Assembly (NCBI GenBank): GCA_017306155.1
Contig: JAFKJB010000021.1
Span: 1 to 61,156 of the forward strand
Origin: Nitrosospira multiformis
Lineage (GTDB): Bacteria > Pseudomonadota > Gammaproteobacteria > Burkholderiales > Nitrosomonadaceae
Length of the DNA stretch: 61,156 nucleotides
Direction: 5' to 3'
The notes under the pieces are model-generated. The model saw nothing but the letters and a program-made list of their open reading frames with translations, was not told the origin of the DNA and did not search any database. The translations under genes were made by a program, and so were the position numbers. The stretch's first letter is position 1; each line of letters starts with the position of its first letter. Below, piece after piece: positions 6,106 to 20,278 of this stretch.

Positions 6106-6678
6106 TTGAGAGGCATCGACGAAATCGAATCGGAAATCGTCAGCCTGGTGCGCAATACAGTATCCAATACGCTGAGAGCCACAGGGGCGGTCGGTGCGGA
6201 AGCAGTCGATATAACAAGGGATGTCGTCAAGGGCGCGTTTGCCGCCACCGAAGACGCAGGGACCGGATTGGTGCTTTCCACGAAAAGCGTTGCCAAGGGC
6301 GTGGTAATGGGTGTGTCCGATGTGGGCGGCGACGTTATCACGGCAGCAGCAGAAACCGTAAAGGCGGCGGTACGTGGTGCTGCGGATGCCGGTGGGGATG
6401 CCTTGCTGGTTGCCAAACGGACAGTGGATGGCGTGGCCGAGGGAACGAGGGAGACGGGAGGCAATGTTGTAGAGGCGGTCAGGGCGACTGTAAACGCGGC
6501 AGCTGGAGGAATAGGCGACATCGGCACGACTGCTGTTGCGAGCGTGCGCGACATCCTCATGAGTATTGTGGGAGGTGTAAAGGACGTGGCAGGCGCTGCA
6601 ATGCCAAGGTCATACCACGCGGACGACCGTGTTTCACCTCCGCCGCCAGAGTATGTTTCGCCTGCGGAGAGCAAATAG
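6106..6678 (+). CDS. Ala/Gly/Val repeat protein (LEA- or phasin-like), start uncertain
   Basis: About 190 residues of imperfect helical repeats of roughly 11-residue period (VKGAFAATEDAGTG, AKGVVMGVSDVGGD, VKAAVRGAADAGGD, VDGVAEGTRETGG, VNAAAGGIGDIG). Such repeats occur in late-embryogenesis-abundant-like and phasin-like proteins and can form amphipathic helices on surfaces or membranes. The only start in frame is a TTG at 6106 without a clear ribosome binding site; the frame is open further upstream to the end of the small ORF at 5888-6064. The real product may therefore begin at 5888 if a frameshift is corrected. It lies within the metal island; its function is unknown. Confidence 0.6.
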   Translation: MRGIDEIESEIVSLVRNTVSNTLRATGAVGAEAVDITRDVVKGAFAATEDAGTGLVLSTKSVAKGVVMGVSDVGGDVITAAAETVKAAVRGAADAGGDALLVAKRTVDGVAEGTRETGGNVVEAVRATVNAAAGGIGDIGTTAVASVRDILMSIVGGVKDVAGAAMPRSYHADDRVSPPPPEYVSPAESK

Positions 6679-6696
6679 CCGGCGCAACCTTTACGA

Positions 6697-6725
6697 GGGT
6701 TGAGGCACCTCGGACGCCTCAACCC
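6697..6725 (+). terminator. Strong hairpin after the repeat protein gene
   Basis: GGGTTGAGGC (6697-6706) pairs perfectly with GCCTCAACCC (6716-6725) around a 9-base loop, 18 bases after the stop codon. No T-run follows, so it may be a transcript-end stabiliser or a weak terminator. Confidence 0.5.
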
Positions 6726-6886
6726 TGGCGCTGCTTGCAGCCGGTTCTGCTCCAACCATGGGTTTCTTGTTTTCATGGATTCTCTCCGCCTCCGGAAGGA
6801 TTCAGTAGCTTGCTCCGCTTCATCACACCGTAACAAAGCCACTGTTAAATACCACCATGAGGAAGATACCTTAATGGAGGTAAATC

Positions 6887-7247
6887 ATGGCCCACTATAT
6901 CCACCATGTGCCTGGCAGATTGCGTGTCAATACGCCGGTCCTGAAAAAAAAACGAGTTTCGCGCCCGACAGTTGAAATCGTACCTGGAAGGGATGAACGG
7001 GGTTCTTCAGGCTGAAACCAGCATTGTCACAGGCAGTGTCGTGATCAGGTATGACAGATGTCTGGTGAGTTCAACGTCGATTCTCGATTTCCTGCATGAC
7101 CTCGGTTATATCCAGAATACCGGCACCCTGTCCGGACCTGCGCAAGGGACTCCGGTAACGCAGAAGGTGGCGGATATTTTCGTGCAGAAACTTGTGGAAA
7201 CTGCGTTGGAACGATCAGCTGTTGCTTTGGTCGCAGCGCTGATCTGA
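6887..7247 (+). pseudogene. HMA_2-domain protein gene, broken at a run of nine A
   Basis: The frame starts at 6887 with a good AATGGAGG ribosome binding site and reads MAHYIHHVPGRLRVNTPVLKKK, then leaves frame. Dropping one A from the A9 tract (6944-6952) restores KKNEFRARQLKSYLEGMNGV...SIVTGSVVIRYD...ILDFLHDLGYI, a complete HMA_2-like domain of about 119 residues. The HVPGRLRV opening is the family hallmark, and metal-binding Cys residues are absent. The break could be a real mutation, a phase-variable switch, a site of transcriptional slippage, or a sequencing error in the homopolymer. The total length (361 bases) agrees with one extra base. Confidence 0.7.
6944..6952 (+). repeat. Poly-A9 tract that shifts the HMA_2 frame
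   Basis: Nine consecutive A residues after CTG. Eight would keep the downstream HMA_2 sequence in frame. Tracts of this length are prone to replication slippage and to RNA polymerase slippage. Confidence 0.85.
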
Positions 7248-7302
7248 TCTGGCGCGAGCAGATACTGCTTACTGGAATGCTGCGATCCACCGCGATATCG
7301 GA

Positions 7303-8493
7303 CTAACGCAGCAGTGCAGCCTTGTCCGTGCTCTCCCACGGCAATCCGATATCCATCCGTCCCACCTGACCATAAACCGCGAGCCTGTGGTAAAAAACCC
7401 CGCGAAATAATTGAGGCTGGTAGCGTAAATTAAAAGCGCGGATGATTCCGGCCGGGCGGAAATCGAACCGGTCAAGAATACGGGCCGTTATTTCGGTATC
7501 TGGAATGCTCCCCGTCCCAAAAGTATCCACTTGCACGCTTACCGGCCTCGATATTCCTATCGAATACGCCAGATGTACCTCGCACGTTTGCGCAAGGCCC
7601 GCGGCAATCACGTTCTTGGCCGCGTGGCGCGCTGCGTAGGCGCCCACCCGGTCGATACGGGAAGGGTCCTTGCCGGAAAGCGCGGACTCCGAATGCCGGG
7701 AATATTCACCGTATGTATCCACCGCGTTCTTGCGACCTGTCAGCCCGGAGTGCAGAGACGGTCCTCCGCCGGCAACCAACCCCTCGGGATTGATGAAAAT
7801 ATGAGTGCGGGAGTCGGGCCGCAGCGCCTCCGCTGCAAAAACCGGCTCAATCACATGCGCGTTGAGATCATCGCGCAGCGGGCCGACGCCGCGCATGGAG
7901 GTCTTCTCCTGAGTGGCAACGATGGTGATGGAATGGATGCGATACGGTCTGCCTTCGCGATATTCCACCCCTACCTGCGTTTTTCCATCGGGTGCAAGAT
8001 AGGGAATCTGCTTCTGGAAACGTGCGACCGTGAGCCGGCGCGCCAGTTTATGCGAAAGCGAGATGGGCAGCGGCATAAAGGCTGCGCTTTGATTGCAGGC
8101 AAAACCGAATACATTCGCCTGATTCTTGGCGGTAACGGATTCCAGTTCTTCCTCACTCATTTCCCTCTCATCCGAGAACGGATAAGAGGGTGCCGGCAGT
8201 TCGGTCAGGCTCGTCATGATGGTGCAATCTTTTGCATTGAAATCCCCCTGCTCGTAGCCAATCTGACGTATAACCTGACGCGCGACCTCCGGGATGTCGA
8301 TAGAAGCGGACGAAGCGAAGCGCGCTGCGATAAAAAGTATTCCTGTGGATACCGCGCACTCCGCGATCACTTTCGAAAAGGGGTCCTGTTGCAGAAAGCG
8401 GTCGACCAGCGCGTCACTTACCTGATCGCACAGTTTATCCGGGTGCCCGTCAGTAACGGATTCGGAGGTGAACATGAAATCCTGCTTCATCAT
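7303..8493 (-). CDS. Divergent S-adenosylmethionine synthetase paralogue
   Basis: A 396-residue member of the MetK family: FTSESVTDGHPDK at the N-terminus, FINPEGLVAGGGP in the middle, and GLTGRK, SGKDPSRIDR and YAARHAAKN later. Against E. coli MetK, the ATP and phosphate residues His14, Asp16, Lys165, Arg244, Lys245 and Lys265 have counterparts. The GDCGLTGRK aspartate (Asp238) is replaced (SLHSGLTGRK), the GGGAFSGKD loop is SESALSGKD, Lys269 is Arg, and the gating segment GAGDQGLMFGYA has become AKNQANVFGFA. So it is probably not the main SAM synthetase. Its start overlaps the end of the P-type ATPase gene by four bases, indicating one transcript. The substrate may be SAM-related or altered; this cannot be told from sequence. 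Confidence 0.8.
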   Translation of the reverse strand: MMKQDFMFTSESVTDGHPDKLCDQVSDALVDRFLQQDPFSKVIAECAVSTGILFIAARFASSASIDIPEVARQVIRQIGYEQGDFNAKDCTIMTSLTELPAPSYPFSDEREMSEEELESVTAKNQANVFGFACNQSAAFMPLPISLSHKLARRLTVARFQKQIPYLAPDGKTQVGVEYREGRPYRIHSITIVATQEKTSMRGVGPLRDDLNAHVIEPVFAAEALRPDSRTHIFINPEGLVAGGGPSLHSGLTGRKNAVDTYGEYSRHSESALSGKDPSRIDRVGAYAARHAAKNVIAAGLAQTCEVHLAYSIGISRPVSVQVDTFGTGSIPDTEITARILDRFDFRPAGIIRAFNLRYQPQLFRGVFYHRLAVYGQVGRMDIGLPWESTDKAALLR

Positions 8494-11612: not shown

Positions 11613-12112
11613 CTCTACAGAAGTAATGTAATTACATCGTTCTACTGCTACGAATATGCTCTGCGACGCTCATGGCGCGCTCCTGTTGCTGTCCTGGCCT
11701 TGTGCCGGAGCGAGCAGTTGTATTTACAGAGCCGAAAACTTGCCCGTGGCATTCCGAACGATTAGAGTCCCCTCTATTTTTTAGGCTAAATCAATCCTTT
11801 TATCAAGCTAACTTTGGCTCTTGACTGTTACATGCATATTTCCAGGCTTCGAAAGCGCGAATAGGACAGAGCAGCTTATCCCGAGTTTCGGATTTTATAA
11901 ACAGCACAGGAATCGGAGTTGCTTATCCATCTTGACAACATTGGTTTACTGTAATAGCTTTCCTCGTGCTGGAAAGAGCATGCAACTGCCAAACAGGCAA
12001 CTGCGGCAACTGAAGGTAGTTGTTGCCTGGCCCATATCCTCTCTGCGCTCAATCCAGCTTGTTTCATGTCTTCCAATTCCCCCCAACTTTTGCCATCAAA
12101 AAGGAGTAATAA
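11613..12112. other. Divergent intergenic region before the RiPP cluster
   Basis: About 500 bases between the ATPase (leftward) and the precursor peptide (rightward). Open frames here (for example 11821-12180) have no coding features and overlap the precursor start. The stretch is AT-richer than its surroundings and contains a promoter candidate for the precursor. It probably also holds the promoter of the ATPase operon. Confidence 0.6.
11932..11960 (+). promoter_or_regulatory. Candidate promoter of the RiPP cluster
   Basis: A perfect TTGACA (11932-11937), a 17-base spacer and TAGCTT (11955-11960; three of six matches). It would give a leader of about 145 bases before the precursor start. 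The -10 is weak, so an activator may be needed. Confidence 0.4.
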
Positions 12113-12856
12113 ATGGCCGACGAGCAAAATCCGGAAGCGTCAGAACCCTCTGCAGCGGAATCTGGTACAGCAGTCCCTGAGGCCTCCGGTCCTCAACCTC
12201 GCTCATTGTCTTCCAGCACAAAACTTGCAGATCTGACAATCGATGATCTGAATTCTATTATTGCATCTGAAACCAATCGCGCAATTGCTGCCAGAATGGT
12301 AAATCCAGGCGCTATCGGCCGCCAGGGAGTCCACGTGAATTCGGGACCTCCCGGATTCGTGAATGGAGGAGGACATGCCAATTTCGATCCACGAACGAAC
12401 ACGGTTGGAGGTCGACCGGGGCTTGCGGATATGGGGAGGGCAGGTGTGCACGTCAACTCAGGGCCTCCCGGATTCGTCAATGGAGGAGGACATGCCAATT
12501 TCGATCCCCGAACGGGCACGGTTGGAGGCCGGCCGGGGCTTGCGGATATGGGGAGGGCAGGTGTGCACGTCAACTCGGGGCCTCCCGGATTCGTCAATGG
12601 AGGAGGACATGCCAATTTCGATCCCCGAACGGGCACGGTTGGAGGCCGGCCGGGGCTTGCGGATATGGGGAGGGCAGGTGTGCATGTCAACTCGGGGCCT
12701 CCCGGATTCGTCAATGGAGGAGGACATGCCAATTTCGATCCCAGGACGGCAAGCTCCGCTTTTGTCAATGTAACCTTGCCGGACGGCGGTCAGGTTTCCA
12801 TTCCAGCCACCGGGCCCGTCGATATGCACGTGCGCGGCTTCCATATTACCCGCTAA
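12113..12856 (+). CDS. Multicore RiPP precursor peptide with HVN/FVN/HAN triads
   Basis: A 247-residue peptide with a strong AAGGAG ribosome binding site. Residues 1-71 are a leader: a disordered Glu/Pro/Ser start, then a helix (KLADLTIDDLNSIIASETNRAI) likely to be the enzyme recognition segment. Residues 72-110, 111-149 and 150-188 are three 39-residue units, 189-212 a fourth truncated unit, and 213-247 a tail. Each unit has GVHVNSGPPGFVNGGGHANF followed by DPR, thus three aromatic-X-Asn triads (HVN, FVN, HAN); the tail adds one more FVN. The triads fit the three-residue cyclophane motif (aromatic-X-X, often ending in Asn) acted on by radical SAM/SPASM enzymes; His-containing versions are known. 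Cysteine is absent. The modified product would be a string of cyclophanes. I cannot tell whether the units are cut apart. Confidence 0.85.
   Translation: MADEQNPEASEPSAAESGTAVPEASGPQPRSLSSSTKLADLTIDDLNSIIASETNRAIAARMVNPGAIGRQGVHVNSGPPGFVNGGGHANFDPRTNTVGGRPGLADMGRAGVHVNSGPPGFVNGGGHANFDPRTGTVGGRPGLADMGRAGVHVNSGPPGFVNGGGHANFDPRTGTVGGRPGLADMGRAGVHVNSGPPGFVNGGGHANFDPRTASSAFVNVTLPDGGQVSIPATGPVDMHVRGFHITR
12326..12748 (+). repeat. 117-bp tandem repeats encoding the precursor cores (3.6 copies)
   Basis: Units at 12326-12442, 12443-12559 and 12560-12676, and a partial one at 12677-12748. Units 2 and 3 differ by about one base; unit 1 has a handful of mostly silent changes and Asn in place of Gly after DPRT. 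Such DNA identity indicates recent unequal exchange. This is coding sequence, not a CRISPR array. Confidence 0.9.
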
Positions 12857-12869
12857 ACCGTCTCAATCG

Positions 12870-14030
12870 ATGAAACTCCAGCCCGCCGGCAATGCGATCT
12901 GGCCCGAGCGCGCCGCCGGGCTGCTTCACGCTTTTATCGAAGCTGCCTGCCAGAATGAGGAAATACGAGGCCTGCTGCAGACCGATCCCGCCAAGGCTCT
13001 TTATCAATGGCAGTGGGAGCATGATAATCTGCCTGCATCCCTGCTTCCTCCCGCTGAACCGGTCTCTGTCACCCTTGATGAGGAAACTTTGTGGGGCCCT
13101 CTGAAGTGGCGTACGCAACCGGAAGAAGCCGTAGCGGATTTCCTGCTACAACCGCAGTGGCGTCTTCTAGCCGCTGGCGCCAGGCCTCTTGCCCTGATTC
13201 ACGGAGATGAGCAAAGCCTGACCGCTCTGGGTAGTTGGGCCAGGTCGCGGAGTTATTTTGCCGTGCTCGGCCCGCATGAGTTTCTGCCGCGAGATGACTC
13301 GCACAAGGGGGGATACAGCAATAGCATGGAGCAGGTGGGGAGTGCTCGTCCGGGTTCCGGCGCATGGCGAGGCCTGTTGGTCGCGGCAGACGAGCAGACT
13401 GTGCTGATGGCCTGGCTATGCCAGTTATTCGACTGGGAAACCCTGTTGGGCAGGTTGCTCGGATATCCGGATTGTTGCTGCGATGCGTTCGCACGGCGCT
13501 GGCCGACTGCCTGCCTGCATCACGAGGGTGACGTTGGAATCACGCTTCTGGCAGAATCTAAACCGGAAGCTGGATCATCGGCTGGAATTCGTCATCTGGA
13601 CTGGACAGTGAATATTTTCGCCCGCTATTTCGGGTGGGAAATCATCCAGCATTTTCCGTGCAGCTGGAATTGCGGAGCTACAGCAGCCATGGCACGGCGT
13701 TATTTTTCGGTGCTTTCCCGTTACTGGCCAGGGGAAGGCGAAGTTCTCATGCAGCATTTGTCAGCGCCGTTGCTGATCATGCCGGGTAGAGGTTACGCAC
13801 TCTTTCCGGGCGCAAGGATAGTAGAAGAGAAGAAGGGTACAAGCCTGTGCTACGACCCGGAACGCCTGCGGATTGTCGGAATGGAAAGCGCTTCTACCAG
13901 ACTGGCTTTGTCTTCTGGCCGCCTGTATTCAGGCGCAGGCGAGGACTGGAAAATCCACGGGAGCGAGAAGTCCGGCTGGCTGCTGAGCATTGGGCCCGGC
14001 CTGCAAGATCAACAGGAAATCGGAAAATAA
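12870..14030 (+). CDS. RiPP-cluster protein with a GYPDCCCDAF motif, unknown function
   Basis: A 386-residue protein starting 13 bases after the precursor. I recognise no complete domain. The most telling feature is LLGRLLGYPDCCCDAFARRW near residues 193-212. GYPxCC followed by Phe occurs in DUF483-type proteins and in some peptide-modification neighbourhoods, and three adjacent Cys could bind metal or act as redox thiols. Further Cys/His are at HFPCSWNCGATAAMARRYF (about 262-280). The N-terminus is helical and lacks a signal peptide. Position between precursor and radical SAM enzyme, with short spacing, implies a part in maturation, either as a partner or an enzyme. The reaction is unknown. 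Confidence 0.75.
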   Translation: MKLQPAGNAIWPERAAGLLHAFIEAACQNEEIRGLLQTDPAKALYQWQWEHDNLPASLLPPAEPVSVTLDEETLWGPLKWRTQPEEAVADFLLQPQWRLLAAGARPLALIHGDEQSLTALGSWARSRSYFAVLGPHEFLPRDDSHKGGYSNSMEQVGSARPGSGAWRGLLVAADEQTVLMAWLCQLFDWETLLGRLLGYPDCCCDAFARRWPTACLHHEGDVGITLLAESKPEAGSSAGIRHLDWTVNIFARYFGWEIIQHFPCSWNCGATAAMARRYFSVLSRYWPGEGEVLMQHLSAPLLIMPGRGYALFPGARIVEEKKGTSLCYDPERLRIVGMESASTRLALSSGRLYSGAGEDWKIHGSEKSGWLLSIGPGLQDQQEIGK

Positions 14031-14034
14031 AAAC

Positions 14035-15630
14035 ATGAAATACTTCAGCAGGCCTTCCCGCGAAAGCGCGGAAAGCGCCTATCTCGGAGATATCTTCGGC
14101 AAGCGTTTCGAGCCTTTCGGTACCCTCAGCGTCAGTGATGACACGCGCATGGGCATCCACGGCGTCGTTCTGGAAGAAATTGAAGGCCAGGCACTCGCCA
14201 TCCATGCCGAGAGCGCGGCATGGGCCTTTCTCAGCAAGGGTGAAGAAAAATGGTTCCGGCAGCTCGACCACAAACCATTTGGCTGGTTACGGAACAGCTT
14301 TCCGAGTTGTGACTCGCGACAGGATCCTGACCGGGCACTGAACTTCGTTGCCCACCTGTACCGCAGGGGCCTGCTCACACTCAACGGCCATGCCGCGGTG
14401 GATCACCGCATGTTTGCGGATGGGCCGAACTACAACGAGGGAAACCTTATCGAGTTGCTGATTACGGAGAAGTGCAACCTCGCCTGCCCTTATTGTCTTG
14501 CCGGCGCAAACTCGTCGATGCCTGCCATGAACCGGGATACCATCCGCAAGACCGTGGACCTGGCATTTGCCATGCGGGAGAGCGATACGCTGGCCTTTGA
14601 GTTCGCAGGAGGGGAGCCGTTCCTGAAATACGAACTCATGAAGGAAACGGTCGAGTACATTCGCAGCCATCCGTTACGGGGCAACCGGCAACTGTTCATC
14701 AGCACGCAAACCAATGCCACGCTGCTGAACGAGGAGCGTGTCCGCTGGCTGAAGGATGAGGACATCCGTGTCGGAATTTCCATTGACGGAGGCATGCAGA
14801 GCCAGAACGCGAGCCGGCCGCAGGTGAACGGCAAGGAGTCGTTCAGCAAGCTGGCAAAAGGAATCGAGTTGCTGCATCGCTTCGAAGTGCCTTTCGGCGG
14901 CCTGGTAGTCCTGAACCGGTCCAATGCCGGCAATCCCGCGGAGCTTGCCGCTACCATGCTGAGCCTCGGCATCCACGGCTTCCGTCTCAATCCGGTGGCC
15001 TACCTGGGCGATGCGCGGAAGAACTGGAACAGGGTGGGGTTGAATCAGGAGCAGATCATAAGCTTTGTGAAGCGCCTCATGACGCATATCGTGGAGCAAG
15101 GACTGCCACTGCTGGAGGACAATGTGCGCAGCATGTGCGACTTCCTGACCAGTAAGCAGCGCCGGACGCGGTGCATGCGCTCGCACTGCGGAGCGGGCGA
15201 TACCTTTCAAGCCATTGCCGCCAACGGCGATATCTATCCCTGTGGCCGCGCCACACAGTCGCCCGGTCTCAAGCTGGGAAACATCTTCGACTCAGGTGTC
15301 GAAAACCTCTCCCAGCCGGCGCGCCATCACCCGGTCATTGCGCAGATACGGGAACGCCGGCCGGCTGATCTCGAAGGCTGCGGCACCTGCTCCTATCGGC
15401 AACTCTGCCAGTCAGGATGTTCGGTGCAAGCGTGGGAACGTTATGGAACGGTGCGCCAGCGCACTCCCGAGTGCGCTTTCTACAAGACGCTGTATCCCTA
15501 CTTCATGCGCTGGTTATCCTTCGACAAAGCCGCTTTCGATCACTTGAACGCGTACAGTTATTTCAACAACGAGGGCGAACGCTTTTCTCATGATTTCGCA
15601 CCCTTGCAGGAAAAGGCAGTCGCGCTGTGA
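14035..15630 (+). CDS. Radical SAM/SPASM peptide maturase, probably cyclophane-forming
   Basis: 531 residues from the ATG at 14035; an upstream in-frame start at 13990 would overlap the previous gene and is less likely. A RiPP-recognition-like N-terminal part of about 140 residues precedes the radical SAM core. The CxxxCxxC cluster is CNLACPYC (Cys147, 151, 154), with the Gly-rich SAM strand EFAGGEPFL and SIDGG following. The C-terminal SPASM region has many Cys (RCMRSHCGAG, DIYPCGRATQ, CGTCSYRQLCQSGC, ECAF; about 380-485), enough for two auxiliary [4Fe-4S] clusters. This architecture matches the enzymes that join an aromatic ring carbon to the beta carbon of the residue two positions later. 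The substrate is most likely the adjacent repeat peptide. The 3' end overlaps the next gene (GTGA). Confidence 0.88.
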   Translation: MKYFSRPSRESAESAYLGDIFGKRFEPFGTLSVSDDTRMGIHGVVLEEIEGQALAIHAESAAWAFLSKGEEKWFRQLDHKPFGWLRNSFPSCDSRQDPDRALNFVAHLYRRGLLTLNGHAAVDHRMFADGPNYNEGNLIELLITEKCNLACPYCLAGANSSMPAMNRDTIRKTVDLAFAMRESDTLAFEFAGGEPFLKYELMKETVEYIRSHPLRGNRQLFISTQTNATLLNEERVRWLKDEDIRVGISIDGGMQSQNASRPQVNGKESFSKLAKGIELLHRFEVPFGGLVVLNRSNAGNPAELAATMLSLGIHGFRLNPVAYLGDARKNWNRVGLNQEQIISFVKRLMTHIVEQGLPLLEDNVRSMCDFLTSKQRRTRCMRSHCGAGDTFQAIAANGDIYPCGRATQSPGLKLGNIFDSGVENLSQPARHHPVIAQIRERRPADLEGCGTCSYRQLCQSGCSVQAWERYGTVRQRTPECAFYKTLYPYFMRWLSFDKAAFDHLNAYSYFNNEGERFSHDFAPLQEKAVAL

Positions 15631-16877
15631 CGGCAGCGCCCACTGGCAAGGCGGGCTTTCCGGAAGAATCCTTGCAAAGCCTGCTGACGGATTGCAGCGG
15701 GCTCTGCTACCCCTCTTCGCCCGGAACCACTATGGATATCCTGTTCAGCCTTTCCGCGCTGCAACGCTCGGAGCGTTTCCGCAACCGGCTGCACGCGGCA
15801 CTGGAGGCGATGGATGGAAACGAAAGGCGGCTGGCGCAGCACGTCATCGTCCTTCTCGACAGTTTATCTCCCGACAGCCGTGCACGCTTGTTCGCCAATC
15901 CCCTGGCGGAAATCGATGCCGCAGGAGGAACCTACTCCGCACACGATAACCACTGCATCCGGGGGACAAGACAGGTATTGGCGGGAGTCCGCCATCTGAT
16001 CCATCATCCGGCGGTGCGCAACACCACCTTCATTCTTTCCCCCTGCCTGTTCAACGAAGGACCGCTCTATCTGCCGCATGCGCACGCCCTGCTTTTCAAC
16101 GAGGATCCGGATGCCACGCTGGCTTTCACGGAACGCGAAGAAAGCACTCACTTCGTATGGAGTGACGGGCTGAGCCTGACCCTGCCGAATGATGGCAATG
16201 GACTGCCGTCAGGCTTCGACCACCCGCGCCTGCAACCGCTTCCCCGCATCGCAGGCTTTCCTGTGTTGAACGCCGTTGCCGAAGCCGCACCTTTTTTAAT
16301 CTCTTTCGAACCGGCAAGCCAGGAAGAGATCGCGCAGTCGGCGGAACGTTTCGATCATGCGCTGGAGCTTCTCCGCCAGATCTGGCCGCTGGCTTATCAT
16401 GCCCTCCGGCGTCACGTCAGTGCGCTATGCATACTCGAACAGCGGAATCACTCGCGCAGTCACAGTCCGCCTGAGTTGCCGGGAACCATACTGATGAGCC
16501 TGGACGACGTCGAGTGTATCGGCGACTTGTTATGCCATGAATCGAGCCATCTTCGCATGAATGTCTTCCGGCTCTACGATCCTATTGCGCATGCGCGCAG
16601 CGTCGAGCAGGAGGAAGCCGGTTTCGTATCCCCCTGGCGGCCCGATCTGCGTCCCCTGCGGGGACTGGTGGACGGCGTGCATGCCTTTCTCAACGTATGC
16701 CGCTACCATCAGCGGCTGCGGGAACGGTTGCCGGATGCATGGGCTTCCGGCGTGATCTACGAGCGGCAGAAACGGAACGTCATCCAGGCCAATGCAGCAT
16801 TGCGCGAACACGGGATTCCCACCGAACTCGGCAAGATGCTGCTGGACAAATTTGATCAAGAGGCAGCCCTGCTATGA
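15627..16877 (+). CDS. HExxH protein, probable 2-oxoglutarate peptide beta-hydroxylase
   Basis: 416 residues from a GTG that overlaps the radical SAM stop codon. The signature LLCHESSHLRMN (His304, Glu305, His308) is an HExxH motif, followed by SPWRPDLRPLRGLVDGVHAF, which is typical of the RiPP-associated HEXXH-motif family (TIGR04267-like). Members of that family have been shown to be Fe(II)/2-oxoglutarate beta-hydroxylases of peptides rather than proteases. The Arg-rich segment after the motif could supply the co-substrate contact. The N-terminal 180 residues are poorly conserved and probably bind the peptide. Expected reaction: beta-hydroxylation of residues in the repeat peptide. A metalloprotease that cuts the leader is the alternative. 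Confidence 0.75.
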   Translation: MTAAPTGKAGFPEESLQSLLTDCSGLCYPSSPGTTMDILFSLSALQRSERFRNRLHAALEAMDGNERRLAQHVIVLLDSLSPDSRARLFANPLAEIDAAGGTYSAHDNHCIRGTRQVLAGVRHLIHHPAVRNTTFILSPCLFNEGPLYLPHAHALLFNEDPDATLAFTEREESTHFVWSDGLSLTLPNDGNGLPSGFDHPRLQPLPRIAGFPVLNAVAEAAPFLISFEPASQEEIAQSAERFDHALELLRQIWPLAYHALRRHVSALCILEQRNHSRSHSPPELPGTILMSLDDVECIGDLLCHESSHLRMNVFRLYDPIAHARSVEQEEAGFVSPWRPDLRPLRGLVDGVHAFLNVCRYHQRLRERLPDAWASGVIYERQKRNVIQANAALREHGIPTELGKMLLDKFDQEAALL

Positions 16878-17536
16878 CATTTTTGGCAGCATCCTTCACT
16901 GAAACGCACTCCGTCGCGGACGGAAATGCGGATATCGATACCATGACAATGGCACGGCTGCGCCTGGAGTTCGAGGACCGCGGTGCCGCCGTGCTGGGAC
17001 CCTCCGCACTCGCTTCTGATGCGCATCAAGCGCTGCTGGACGAGGCCCTGGCGCAGCGCCGGCACGCAAGCTGGAGCCTGTTTGCCGAGCAATGCCCCGG
17101 CGAAATCTCCCAGAATAACCTGCGCGCCCACCTCGGGCCGCAGGCGCGCAGCTTTCTTTCTTCCCCTGCGATACAGGCTTCGCTGCGTGCTGTCACCGGC
17201 CATCGCCTTGCTCCTTCCTGGAGCGCGAGCTGCTATACCTACTATGACGGACCCGGGCAGCATATGGGCGAGCATTGCGACAAGTGGGATGCCTGCCGGA
17301 TCGCTCTGCTCGTCTACCTTCAAACCACGTGGGCATCCCGTTCGCAACCCACGGAGGGGCTTCAACTGCATGTCTTTCGCGGTGACAACGCCACCAGCGA
17401 ATTGCTGGTGCGCATTACCGCGCTGTCCAATCGCATCGTCATCCTCAATGGAGCGGAACAGGCGCATCTTCGGCCAGCGCTGGCTGAGGGAGAGCACATG
17501 ACGATGCTCGCGGGATGCTACCACCTGACCGATTGA
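16874..17536 (+). CDS. Fe(II)/2-oxoglutarate oxygenase (HxD...H) of the RiPP cluster
   Basis: A 220-residue protein whose ATG overlaps the preceding stop (ATGA). Near residue 130 it has GQHMGEHCDKWD, giving the HxD iron pair (HCD). A distal His lies in EQAHLRPALAEGEH near residue 197, with Arg for 2-oxoglutarate. The pattern and size match the small 2OG-Fe(II) oxygenases reported next to cyclophane-forming maturases. It is unrelated in fold to the HExxH protein before it, so the cluster would have two independent iron oxygenases. The likely target is the cyclophane-bearing precursor (hydroxylation or further oxidation). Confidence 0.78.
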   Translation: MTFLAASFTETHSVADGNADIDTMTMARLRLEFEDRGAAVLGPSALASDAHQALLDEALAQRRHASWSLFAEQCPGEISQNNLRAHLGPQARSFLSSPAIQASLRAVTGHRLAPSWSASCYTYYDGPGQHMGEHCDKWDACRIALLVYLQTTWASRSQPTEGLQLHVFRGDNATSELLVRITALSNRIVILNGAEQAHLRPALAEGEHMTMLAGCYHLTD

Positions 17537-17546
17537 GAGAGCCAGC

Positions 17547-18137
17547 ATGCAATGGAACGATTGGCCTCCCCGCGACGCATCGCTCATGGCGGGGTACGAG
17601 TCATGGCGGGGCGGAAGGCTGAGCGAGGCGCAGTCGTTCTTCGAGGAACGAATGCGGTCGCAGCCGGAGGATGCCGATGTCTGGAGAGGCCTGGGGAATG
17701 TATCCTGGTCCCGCAGAGATTTCGTATCGGCTCTTCGCTATTTCAATGAAGCTTTGCGCCTTGAGCCATGGAATCCGATGTATTGGAGCAATATGGGCCT
17801 TGCACGCCGCGATCTTGGTCAGCCGGAAGCCGCAATTTCCGCATTTCGTGTCGCCCTGGGCCTTGATTCCCTCTATGCTCCGGCGCTCAACGAGTGGGCA
17901 AACGTTCTGTTCGATATGGGTCGCTATGAGGATGCGTTGCCGCTCTATGACGCCTCCCTCGCGATTGACGATGGCCGGGCAGTGGTTCACCACAACAAGG
18001 GCGTCTGCTTGCGGCATATGGGGAAGCTGACGGAGGCTGTATGCTACTTTCGTGCAGCACTTGAGCTGGAGCCTGGGTATCACTATTCGCAGGAAGAGCT
18101 GCAACGGCTGGTATTTGTCAATCTTCCTCCCGCATGA
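17547..18137 (+). CDS. TPR protein of the RiPP cluster
   Basis: A 196-residue protein consisting of tetratricopeptide repeats from about residue 15 (SLMAGYESWRGGRLSEAQSFF, VWRGLGNVSWSRRDFVSALRYF, MYWSNMGLARRDLGQPEAAISAF, ALNEWANVLFDMGRYEDALPLY, VHHNKGVCLRHMGKLTEAVCYF), five units in all. TPR proteins accompany several cyclophane RiPP systems and are assumed to hold the precursor or enzymes together. It starts ten bases after the oxygenase, so it belongs to the same transcript. No signal peptide or membrane helix is present; it should be cytoplasmic. Confidence 0.82.
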   Translation: MQWNDWPPRDASLMAGYESWRGGRLSEAQSFFEERMRSQPEDADVWRGLGNVSWSRRDFVSALRYFNEALRLEPWNPMYWSNMGLARRDLGQPEAAISAFRVALGLDSLYAPALNEWANVLFDMGRYEDALPLYDASLAIDDGRAVVHHNKGVCLRHMGKLTEAVCYFRAALELEPGYHYSQEELQRLVFVNLPPA

Positions 18138-18295: not shown

Positions 18296-20278
18296 ATGCC
18301 GAACAGCACATCTCATACGCAGCCTATGCAGCATACGCAGAAAGCGGAAATATATGACCTGGTAATTGTCGGCGGCGGTATTGCCGGACTCTATTGCTGC
18401 CACGAACTTATCAAGAAAGTCCGGAGCGGCTCGCTCGATATCAGGAGTATTCTCCTTCTGGAAGCTTCCGACCGTTTTGGCGGGCGCATCGAAACGTGGT
18501 CTCTGCTGAGAAGCAGCGAGGAAAATGGAAAGAAGATCGGTTTTGAAGATACATGGGATCCGTGTAACTGGGACATCGATAACGGCTGCCTTGCTCCCCC
18601 TGACCCGCAGACGGGTAAGCAGTCTCCATTCAGGGGGCCGACAGAAAAATCATTCAGGAATGTGGATGGCAGCGATGTCGAAAAGCTGACCGATATCGAA
18701 TACTTCCGCGCGGAATTCGGGCCCATGAGAATCGAGCCGCGGGACCAGATTTTATTGCAGGGATTGCTCGACGATCTTGGAATCAGGGAACCTGACCCCG
18801 GGGGGGAAGAAGGCCTGGATGACCTCGTGCCGTTCTCTTCGTACACCTCCGAAGATCCGATGGCGCCTCGATTCACTCTTCAGGAGGAGGAAGCGCAGCA
18901 GAAAACTCCTTTTGACCTGATGATACTCGCTCTCAGGCGCATCTTCGAACTCGTCCATGGTCCGGAATTCGACGGCCCGGCTTCGACTCCCTGGTATACG
19001 GATGCCGCCAATGAACAATGGAGAAAACTGCACAGCGCGCAGTTCTTTTACCGCCATTACTGGAAGGGAGAACTGCTCGAATGGATACAGTATCTTACCG
19101 ATCCTGACTTCGTAACGATCCGGGAGCACGCGCGGTTCAGGGACCAGCCATTATGGGACCTGGGATTCTGGAACGTCCTCAGCGATGTCTTGAGCCATTA
19201 CGCGGTGGTCAAGATCAGGGACTGGGGAAGTTACTACCACTTTGTTCACGAAAACCTGAATGCCGCCGAGTGGATTATCTTCTGGCTCCGGGCAATTCGA
19301 AGCACGGGTTCGCTTCGAGGCATACGCGGGGGGATGAGCAGGATAATCTGGAACCTGCTGGAGATCTTGCGCAAGCACCAGAACAGTCATGAATCTCCTC
19401 GTCTGAAGATCGCGAAAGGCGCGAGAGTAGCGAGCGTGGAAAGACGGGAGGACGCGCTGGTTGCCCTTACCGTACAGAAGCAGGATGAGGTCGAGCTTGT
19501 GCACGCACGAAGGGTCATTTTTGCCCTGCCGAAGCGCCCGCTCGAGGAAATGTCATGGAATGGGGAGCGTCCAAAAGGCAATCTTTACGAAGCACTCAAC
19601 GCGGTCGTTTGTCTTCCGCTGCTGAAATGTTTTTTCGTCATCGAGAAACCCTGGTGGGAAGACAACCGGTCTCTCAACCGCTATGCATCCGACATACCAA
19701 CCCGCGAACTGCTGTATGTGAAAAGCAGGGACCGGACAAAAGGGTTGATCATGATTTATACCGACCGCCCGGCAATCACATTCTGGTCCGATTACCTCAG
19801 AAGCGAATCCGGCAATAATTCCAAAGGTCCCGAGCAACCGGAGGGGCCGCAGGTCGACTACCAGGATGCCGCCAGGGTCTGGTTCCTGGACAAAACACCT
19901 TCTCCGACGTGCGGTTCGATTATCGAGATCAAACCCGGATCAGTTCGACTATGGCAGCGCTTCGTGCAGTTTGCCAGGGATTATGAGCACCATGACTTTA
20001 CCACAGGCCGCCTTCTCGCCTGTGGCATGCGCGACTGGGGGAAGGAGCCTTTCGGCGCCGCGGCGCACGGATGGCGCCCGGGTGTAAGGTCCCGGGAGCA
20101 TATCGAGTTTCTCGAGGCATTTTCCCTCGAAGAAGAGAAGCAGGAAACCGGGCAAAACAACCTGCACGTTTGCGGAGAAGCGTTTTCCGATTATCAGGGA
20201 TTCATTGAAGGCTCGCTGCGATCAGCGCAGCGCGTTCTGACTGTGATAGAGGAACAGCAGAAGCCGGGAAAAAGCTGA
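18296..20278 (+). CDS. FAD-dependent amine oxidase family protein
   Basis: A 660-residue flavoprotein. The N-terminal dinucleotide fold YDLVIVGGGIAGLYCCHEL (residues 20-38) has GxGxxG-type glycines, followed by ILLLEASDRFGGRIETW, the GGR motif of the amine oxidase family (monoamine oxidase, L-amino-acid oxidase, phytoene desaturase). The C-terminal FAD motif is NLHVCGEAFSDYQGFIEGSLRSAQ. The protein is longer than usual, with an insert near residues 110-230. No signal peptide is seen. It follows the RiPP genes on the same strand but after 158 bases containing palindromes, so it may be a further tailoring enzyme or an independent gene. The substrate is unknown. Confidence 0.78.
   Translation: MPNSTSHTQPMQHTQKAEIYDLVIVGGGIAGLYCCHELIKKVRSGSLDIRSILLLEASDRFGGRIETWSLLRSSEENGKKIGFEDTWDPCNWDIDNGCLAPPDPQTGKQSPFRGPTEKSFRNVDGSDVEKLTDIEYFRAEFGPMRIEPRDQILLQGLLDDLGIREPDPGGEEGLDDLVPFSSYTSEDPMAPRFTLQEEEAQQKTPFDLMILALRRIFELVHGPEFDGPASTPWYTDAANEQWRKLHSAQFFYRHYWKGELLEWIQYLTDPDFVTIREHARFRDQPLWDLGFWNVLSDVLSHYAVVKIRDWGSYYHFVHENLNAAEWIIFWLRAIRSTGSLRGIRGGMSRIIWNLLEILRKHQNSHESPRLKIAKGARVASVERREDALVALTVQKQDEVELVHARRVIFALPKRPLEEMSWNGERPKGNLYEALNAVVCLPLLKCFFVIEKPWWEDNRSLNRYASDIPTRELLYVKSRDRTKGLIMIYTDRPAITFWSDYLRSESGNNSKGPEQPEGPQVDYQDAARVWFLDKTPSPTCGSIIEIKPGSVRLWQRFVQFARDYEHHDFTTGRLLACGMRDWGKEPFGAAAHGWRPGVRSREHIEFLEAFSLEEEKQETGQNNLHVCGEAFSDYQGFIEGSLRSAQRVLTVIEEQQKPGKS

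Follow-up and report, generated by a model that had tools for sequence, protein, structure and literature searches.

A conserved six-gene operon of Nitrosospira multiformis with four identical precursor cores, best read as an unnamed variant of the cyclophane-type ribosomally synthesised and post-translationally modified peptides (RiPPs)

Introduction

In the triceptide pathways (XncB, OscB/GrrM, HaaB, YhhB, FxsB), a radical S-adenosylmethionine (SAM)/SPASM enzyme is encoded beside a precursor with aromatic-X-X3 motifs. XncB and OscB bond Phe C4 to the C-beta of Asn, HaaB and ScaB bond His C2 to Ala, and YhhB bonds His C2 to Arg (PMC11002830). In ChlB-ChlH, a radical SAM multiple cyclophane synthase is paired with an alpha-ketoglutarate (alphaKG)-HExxH hydroxylase; ChlH hydroxylates His and Asp on the preinstalled cyclophane, and the HExxH relatives PflC and PosC catalyse Gln hydroxylation and oxidative backbone cleavage (PMC12636437). 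In biphenomycin biosynthesis, an alphaKG-HExxH enzyme (BpmH) and a JmjC hydroxylase are predicted together (PMC12257519). We describe here a locus of Nitrosospira multiformis that combines features of these systems. It lies in a 61,156-nucleotide stretch of DNA, the contig JAFKJB010000021.1 of assembly GCA_017306155.1 (hereafter the window), and comprises six genes, A (precursor), C (GYPxCC protein), B (radical SAM/SPASM maturase), D (HExxH protein), E (HxD...H protein) and T (tetratricopeptide-repeat, TPR, protein).

The locus shares with triceptide clusters the radical SAM/SPASM gene next to an aromatic-X-X3 precursor, and the triads of its core match a known acceptor, Asn, and known donors, Phe and His (PMC11002830). 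It differs in using only His and Phe, in having four invariant 20-residue cores, in a precursor that matches none of the NCBIfam precursor models, and in a maturase for which the cyclophane models listed score far below cut-off; the His-to-Asn pair of this core is not among the bonds cited above from PMC11002830. With ChlB-ChlH it shares the enzyme pairing: D is a homologue of ChlH, and B is related to ChlB in the radical SAM domain. However, the two systems are distant in sequence, B and D are separate genes here whereas ChlBH is described as a fusion (PMC12636437), and additional HxD...H, GYPxCC and TPR proteins are encoded here. The bpm cluster likewise holds two different predicted hydroxylases in one RiPP cluster, but with a different precursor and with multinuclear non-heme iron-dependent oxidative enzyme (MNIO) and B12-radical SAM chemistry (PMC12257519).

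Results

Gene order and relatives of the operon

The A-C-B-D-E-T block is a single tight operon. The initial annotation had placed here genes for a precursor, a radical SAM/SPASM enzyme, an HExxH protein, an HxD...H protein, a GYPDCCC protein and a TPR protein, and all six were found at those positions (Table 1). It had also described overlapping stop/start codons, which holds for two of the five junctions, B/D and D/E, whereas the remaining three are gaps of 13, 4 and 10 nucleotides (nt).

Relatives were collected by scanning one genome per species, 84,980 species in all, with six short B peptides, a procedure that retrieves close relatives only and so gives a lower bound. Six loci were obtained, in Nitrosovibrio sp. 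Nv17, a Nitrospira metagenome-assembled genome (MAG), Nitrosospira sp. 56-18, Paracoccus yeei, an Acidobacteria MAG and Nitrosovibrio tenuis. Among 72,556 plasmid records B was present at E <= 1e-60 in four, all from P. yeei, and A was present in those four. Within the family, B occurs in 6 of 125 genomes, all six in the genus, for which 23 genomes were available; A and B are found together in these six and are both absent from the other 17 (E <= 1e-60 and 1e-3). A second weak precursor match in one genome of the genus lies antisense inside gene A itself. Evenly drawn samples of the order (399 genomes), the Paracoccus family (248), the Acidobacteria phylum (297) and the Nitrospira phylum (198) each yielded one B, that of the known carrier, as did the sample of the Paracoccus class (1 of 327 at E <= 1e-45). 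The true relatives all scored E <= 2.4e-221, and between that value and the cut-offs used (1e-45 to 1e-80) there was no B match.

Eleven loci were compared in detail (the window, L001-L006, L008, L009, L016 and L017). Together with two more P. yeei plasmids they make 13 records, five of them from P. yeei, in nine species. The carriers are nitrosifiers, P. yeei, the Nitrospira MAG (L002) and the Acidobacteria MAG, and are assigned to three phyla. The order A-C-B-D-E-T is present in 12 of the 13 records; in the remaining one, L005, only 130 bases of contig follow B. A accompanies B in 13/13 records, and no case of the same radical SAM gene paired with another peptide was found. The cluster is not named in the open-access literature titles or abstract openings searched (subscription papers and supplements lie outside this scope), and three core fragments had no occurrence in the main texts of the open-access library searched.

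An invariant core in four copies

Gene A of the window presents a 117-nt tandem repeat (3.6 copies, 95% matches) and encodes exactly four exact copies of the 20-residue core HVNSGPPGFVNGGGHANFDP. The same core, four times and never more or fewer, was found in all 13 precursors, with 52/52 copies identical, 44 of them from the 11 loci analysed at the DNA level and 8/8 from the two further P. yeei plasmids. The 44 copies are the same in amino acids, yet they are written in 41 DNA versions, with synonymous variants at all 20 core codons. Considering that the gene order recurs in 12 of 13 records and that 44/44 cores are identical despite these synonymous variants, the operon is conserved beyond chance. 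In the 11 loci the linkers between cores are freely variable, from 1 to 24 residues, the one-residue linkers occurring only in L003 and L005.

Each core contains three invariant aromatic-X-Asn triads, HVN, FVN and HAN, and all three core Asn are placed exactly two residues after an aromatic residue. At least three triads were obtained in 0.29% of a million 20-residue shuffles (permutation P = 0.003). Outside the cores the triad appears once each in 3 of the 11 precursors, the window's among them. The multicore precursor with His/Phe triads proposed earlier is thus upheld, with four exact cores of three triads each. Cys, Trp and Tyr are absent from 13/13 precursors, so that the aromatic partners are limited to His and Phe and thioethers from the precursor are excluded; with 0 Cys in all 13, A lacks the core Cys by which sactipeptides and ranthipeptides are recognised. 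In the leader, the segment LADLTIDDLNSIIASE (residues 38-53), in which the pattern L..LT..DL..I...E is kept across the aligned precursors, is likely to be an enzyme-binding helix, judging from the alignment. No obvious signal peptide was seen on A by eye.

The maturase B

B exhibits the motif CNLACPYC and nine more Cys from residue 368 onward, eight of which are invariant in seven aligned sequences, the window's included. The Pfam models Radical_SAM and SPASM are above cut-off in the window B, in agreement with the radical SAM/SPASM maturase of the initial annotation, and are matched by 7/7 aligned B sequences at E <= 0.1; the SPASM model TIGR04085 gives 54.6 bits for a cut-off of 27. The solved radical SAM domain of ChlB (9gm3) is matched at 58.5 bits, and the N-terminal 138 residues gave no family match at E <= 0.1. 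Viral contigs contain eight distant radical SAM matches, with 28-34% identity over 110-153 residues.

The NCBIfam comparison covers the best 25 of 80 families for the whole protein and the best 25 of 70 for the radical SAM part. The cut-off is reached by 0/25 of the best whole-protein matches, and the radical SAM part scores 70.9 bits of the 445 required for YhhB, 65.8 of 310 for GrrM/OscB and 56.4 of 370 for FxsB. Because the best scores all lie below cut-off, B is, on sequence comparison, a SPASM peptide maturase that falls in none of the named families listed, and the cluster was therefore not filed in a named triceptide maturase family.

The putative oxygenases D and E

D scores 81.3 bits against the curated NCBIfam model TIGR04267 (alphaKG-HExxH hydroxylase, cut-off 40), which confirms the HExxH-family protein annotated earlier. 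The HExxH, present as HESSH at residue 304, and an SPWRxDxRP segment that is also found in ChlH are invariant in six D sequences and align with the ChlH structure 8s5f. Used as a profile against solved chains, D matches 22nu (E 5.6e-07) and 8s5f (E 4.7e-05). These similarities place D in the alphaKG-HExxH peptide hydroxylase family.

The triad H134-x-D136...H198 of E is invariant in six sequences, and PF13640 is matched by five of the six E members at E <= 0.1. The top Foldseek matches of its low-confidence structure model are 2-oxoglutarate (2OG) enzymes, HalD (1.6e-03), then PHD2 (1.8e-03) and other prolyl hydroxylases. Sequence and model suggest a weak resemblance of E to the 2OG oxygenases.

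The proteins C and T

In C, Cys 202, 203, 264 and 268 and His 261 are invariant in seven sequences. The short GYPxCC stretch touches DUF483 (PF04467) in 7/7 aligned members, below cut-off (best E 0.0053), the window C giving 16.9 bits (cut-off 25) over 19 aligned residues. DUF483 was rejected as the family of C, being below cut-off, and its model finds nothing in the window's genome. The structure model of C is moderately confident (pLDDT, predicted local distance difference test, 72.8), its best solved match has an E of 0.38, and no recognised fold or known family was found for C in Pfam, NCBIfam or the solved structures. Of 349 genomes sampled from the phylum, only the window's own was found to have C. 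The GYPxCC protein is an unexplained conserved partner. T matches the Pfam TPR models.

Table 1. Coordinates of the operon and associated features in the window
Feature	Position	Strand	Remarks
Six-gene operon A-C-B-D-E-T	12113-18137	+	Open reading frames (ORFs) read in the window
Ribosome-binding site AAGGAG of precursor gene A	12101..12106	+	Read in the sequence
Gene A, precursor, 247 aa	12113..12856	+	Leader, four cores, conserved C-terminal tail
Leader segment LADLTIDDLNSIIASE, residues 38-53	12224..12271	+	Conserved; alignment
Core 1, HVNSGPPGFVNGGGHANFDP	12332..12391	+	
Core 2, identical to HVNSGPPGFVNGGGHANFDP	12449..12508	+	
Core 3, identical to HVNSGPPGFVNGGGHANFDP	12566..12625	+	
Core 4, identical to HVNSGPPGFVNGGGHANFDP	12683..12742	+	
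Conserved C-terminal tail	12743..12853	+	VTLPDGGxVxIPATGPVDxxVRGFHxxR type; alignment
Gene C, 386 aa	12870..14030	+	GYPxCC...HFPCxxxC protein, window motif GYPDCCC
Gene B, 531 aa	14035..15630	+	Radical SAM/SPASM maturase, ATG at 14035
Gene D, 416 aa	15627..16877	+	AlphaKG-HExxH-type peptide hydroxylase family by sequence, GTG start
Gene E, 220 aa	16874..17536	+	HxD...H protein, weakly 2OG-Fe(II) oxygenase-like, ATG start
Gene T, 196 aa	17547..18137	+	TPR protein, conserved last operon gene
Flavin amine-oxidase gene F	18296-20278	+	PF01593; VioA-like 58 bits, cut-off 600

Genomic neighbours

In the window, promoter- and terminator-like sites numbered 2 and 6 against 3.0 and 6.1 expected, an Rfam search gave zero matches, and a search for additional repeats returned short two-copy pairs only.

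Ten loci show what follows T, and in four of them (the window, L003, L006 and L017) it is gene F, whose called start overlaps the T stop in L006 and L017. F was considered as a seventh gene and rejected: three of the four cluster-free genomes fetched (of 17 in the genus) also encode it upstream of metH, at a distance of about 8 kb or less and in one of them with 94% identity over 470 aa, and the six cluster genes are absent there. Since F also occurs in cluster-free relatives, it is probably a neighbour only. The alpha/beta hydrolase gene that precedes A in P. yeei was likewise discarded as a shared gene, the hydrolase of L003 being dissimilar (best E 0.27). A cation P-type ATPase neighbours the cluster in the window and in L006.

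In several nitrosifiers the cluster lies near yifB and metH. The metH gene is downstream of it in L003, L006, L016 and L017 (that of the window genome is on another contig), while yifB is upstream in L001, L016 and L017 and lies <=6 kb from metH in two of the four cluster-free genomes. A role of metH/metK as SAM supply of the cluster was rejected, a single metH being present in the genomes of L003, L006, L016 and L017 and in cluster-free genomes alike; because of this single copy everywhere and of yifB near metH in cluster-free genomes, metH and metK are taken as chromosomal neighbours without functional link. In the four cluster-free genomes fetched (L037-L040) the gene content upstream of metH differs, and several carriers hold the cluster there; this stretch may be a variable site of the chromosome. 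The P. yeei clusters are located on plasmids, and in L008 (1-2555) peaA and peaB, encoding a quinohemoprotein amine dehydrogenase and its maturation protein, lie a few kb from the cluster.

The midpoint-rooted tree of B (11 rows, long branches) places the Nitrospira sequence inside the nitrosifier group, with values of 100/99 for a group of seven and 82/82 for the placement next to L001. Compared with the window, the proteins of the Nitrospira MAG show identities of 75% (B), 72% (E), 70% (T), 62% (A), 56% (C) and 55% (D), with 63% for MetH, and those of a genus-mate 82% (B), 79% (E), 74% (T), 71% (A), 59% (C) and 67% (D), with 89% for MetH. Across the phylum boundary the cluster proteins thus drop much less than MetH. 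In L002 an IS3 transposase (6448-7311) and a VirB4 conjugation ATPase (15315-17795) flank the cluster. Taken together, the tree, the smaller drop and these two nearby genes suggest either that the cluster has moved from one nitrifier guild to another or that the contig was wrongly binned. A 1459-aa ORF upstream of the cluster in L002 (25-4404) has no NCBIfam match at E <= 1e-10.

Discussion

The cluster is real and conserved, and has no named family model among the matches listed. Its assignment as a RiPP system is strong, and its best reading is an unnamed variant of the cyclophane RiPPs, which would by analogy work like the triceptide and ChlBH pathways. Through its conserved leader, A would be presented to B, which would bond the aromatic rings of His1, Phe9 and His15 to the C-beta of the Asn at i+2; every core would carry three three-residue cyclophanes, and a chain would have at most twelve. 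Once the cores are crosslinked, D would hydroxylate their His, Asn or Asp residues at beta carbons, and E would add a second hydroxylation, for which the invariant Gly-Pro-Pro-Gly (GPPG) is a candidate site, prolyl hydroxylases being among the nearest folds of E. T and C may be substrate-holding or cofactor proteins. Each chemical step, its order and its sites, as well as the roles of C and T, are predicted by analogy; on that footing cyclophane formation by B is likely, and we consider the pathway as a whole, a RiPP maturation operon with cyclophane stapling and then hydroxylation, to be fairly probable. Of the new combination put forward in the initial annotation, the RiPP cluster, the multicore precursor, its triads, the radical SAM/SPASM enzyme and the family of D hold, whereas E is oxygenase-like only weakly.

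Several results weigh against this pathway. None of the cyclophane-forming NCBIfam models listed reaches its cut-off with B: in the best 25 of 80, the top scores are those of PapB (161.5 bits of 340) and an anaerobic sulfatase maturase (153.2 of 349), followed among others by HxsB (149.8 of 370) and DynA (148.2 of 450), and AmcB, the sole cyclophane-named model, reaches 89.6 for a cut-off of 425. In the Protein Data Bank (PDB), B is matched best by 5wgg (93.7 bits) and by 4k37, a sulfatase maturase (90.8 bits), and less well by ChlB. The action of D and E on the cores would follow by analogy. For E, the PF13640 score is 21.8 bits, below the cut-off of 27, the structure model is poor (pLDDT 50.1) and 0/216 fold matches reach an E of 0.001. 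Many 2OG enzymes carry Arg or Lys about 9-10 residues after the distal His. In the six aligned E sequences the residue at +9 is Glu throughout and that at +10 is H, C, R, H, R or N, so that E has no conserved Arg where 2OG enzymes usually have one.

The scores of B bear directly on a different chemistry, in which the locus is a RiPP operon but B performs another radical reaction on the cores and D and E tailor that product. Candidates are the formation of larger rings or of dynobactin-like C-N bonds from His, epimerisation, and some other reaction at C-beta. Such an alternative would agree with PapB, HxsB and DynA outranking the cyclophane models among those listed, and with B seeming to form an isolated family, as its single occurrence in the sample of the Paracoccus class illustrates. 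It accounts poorly, however, for the three core Asn that all have an aromatic residue at the same two-residue spacing and are unchanged in 44 copies, and the thioether branch of such chemistry is closed by a precursor devoid of Cys; we regard it as quite unlikely. A further alternative detaches A from the enzymes altogether, making the repeat protein a structural or binding protein while the enzymes act on another substrate. The link of A to them is a genomic one, but the strict co-occurrence and order of A and B in records assigned to three phyla, and invariant short units separated by free linkers, which are hard to explain without an enzyme that reads the sequence, make this highly improbable.

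A separate question, compatible with cyclophane stapling by B, is whether the product is cut into pieces at all. The four identical modified units and the conserved tail could stay together as one intact chain that acts inside the cell, perhaps carrying a metal or cofactor. Four copies are kept in 13/13 records though some linkers shrink to one residue, the C-terminal tail is conserved, A has no obvious signal peptide, and no peptidase or exporter gene is common to the loci among the annotated or compared neighbours, for which no dedicated search was made. On the other hand, peptidase genes can lie elsewhere in the genome, the one-residue linkers are confined to two loci, and some neighbours belong to single groups (the alpha/beta hydrolase to P. 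yeei, the dissimilar hydrolase to L003, the cation P-type ATPase to the window and L006). D itself could also release fragments, since its HExxH relatives PflC and PosC cleave the backbone oxidatively (PMC12636437). An intact chain is thus conceivable, at somewhat less than even chances. The stronger proposal, a new RiPP class in which an intact intracellular chain of four stapled, doubly hydroxylated modules with 12 crosslinks serves a fixed, non-antibiotic task, is rather doubtful in our view.

A core that is frozen and always present four times, across three assigned phyla, stands beside a maturase of unnamed family and two putative kinds of iron oxygenase. Such a core speaks for a specific physiological role and not for warfare, in which cores tend to vary, and its constancy agrees with a unit that has to fold about one fixed partner or metal. 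Provided that the crosslinks exist, A would, with twelve of them per chain, be in our judgement a very densely stapled genetically encoded peptide, and prolyl hydroxylation of GPPG, if it occurs, would be a collagen-like mark on a stapled peptide. If the proposal of an intact chain with a fixed task were true, this task would be common to ammonia oxidisers, Paracoccus and, as far as the binning of the MAGs permits, a nitrite oxidiser and an acidobacterium.

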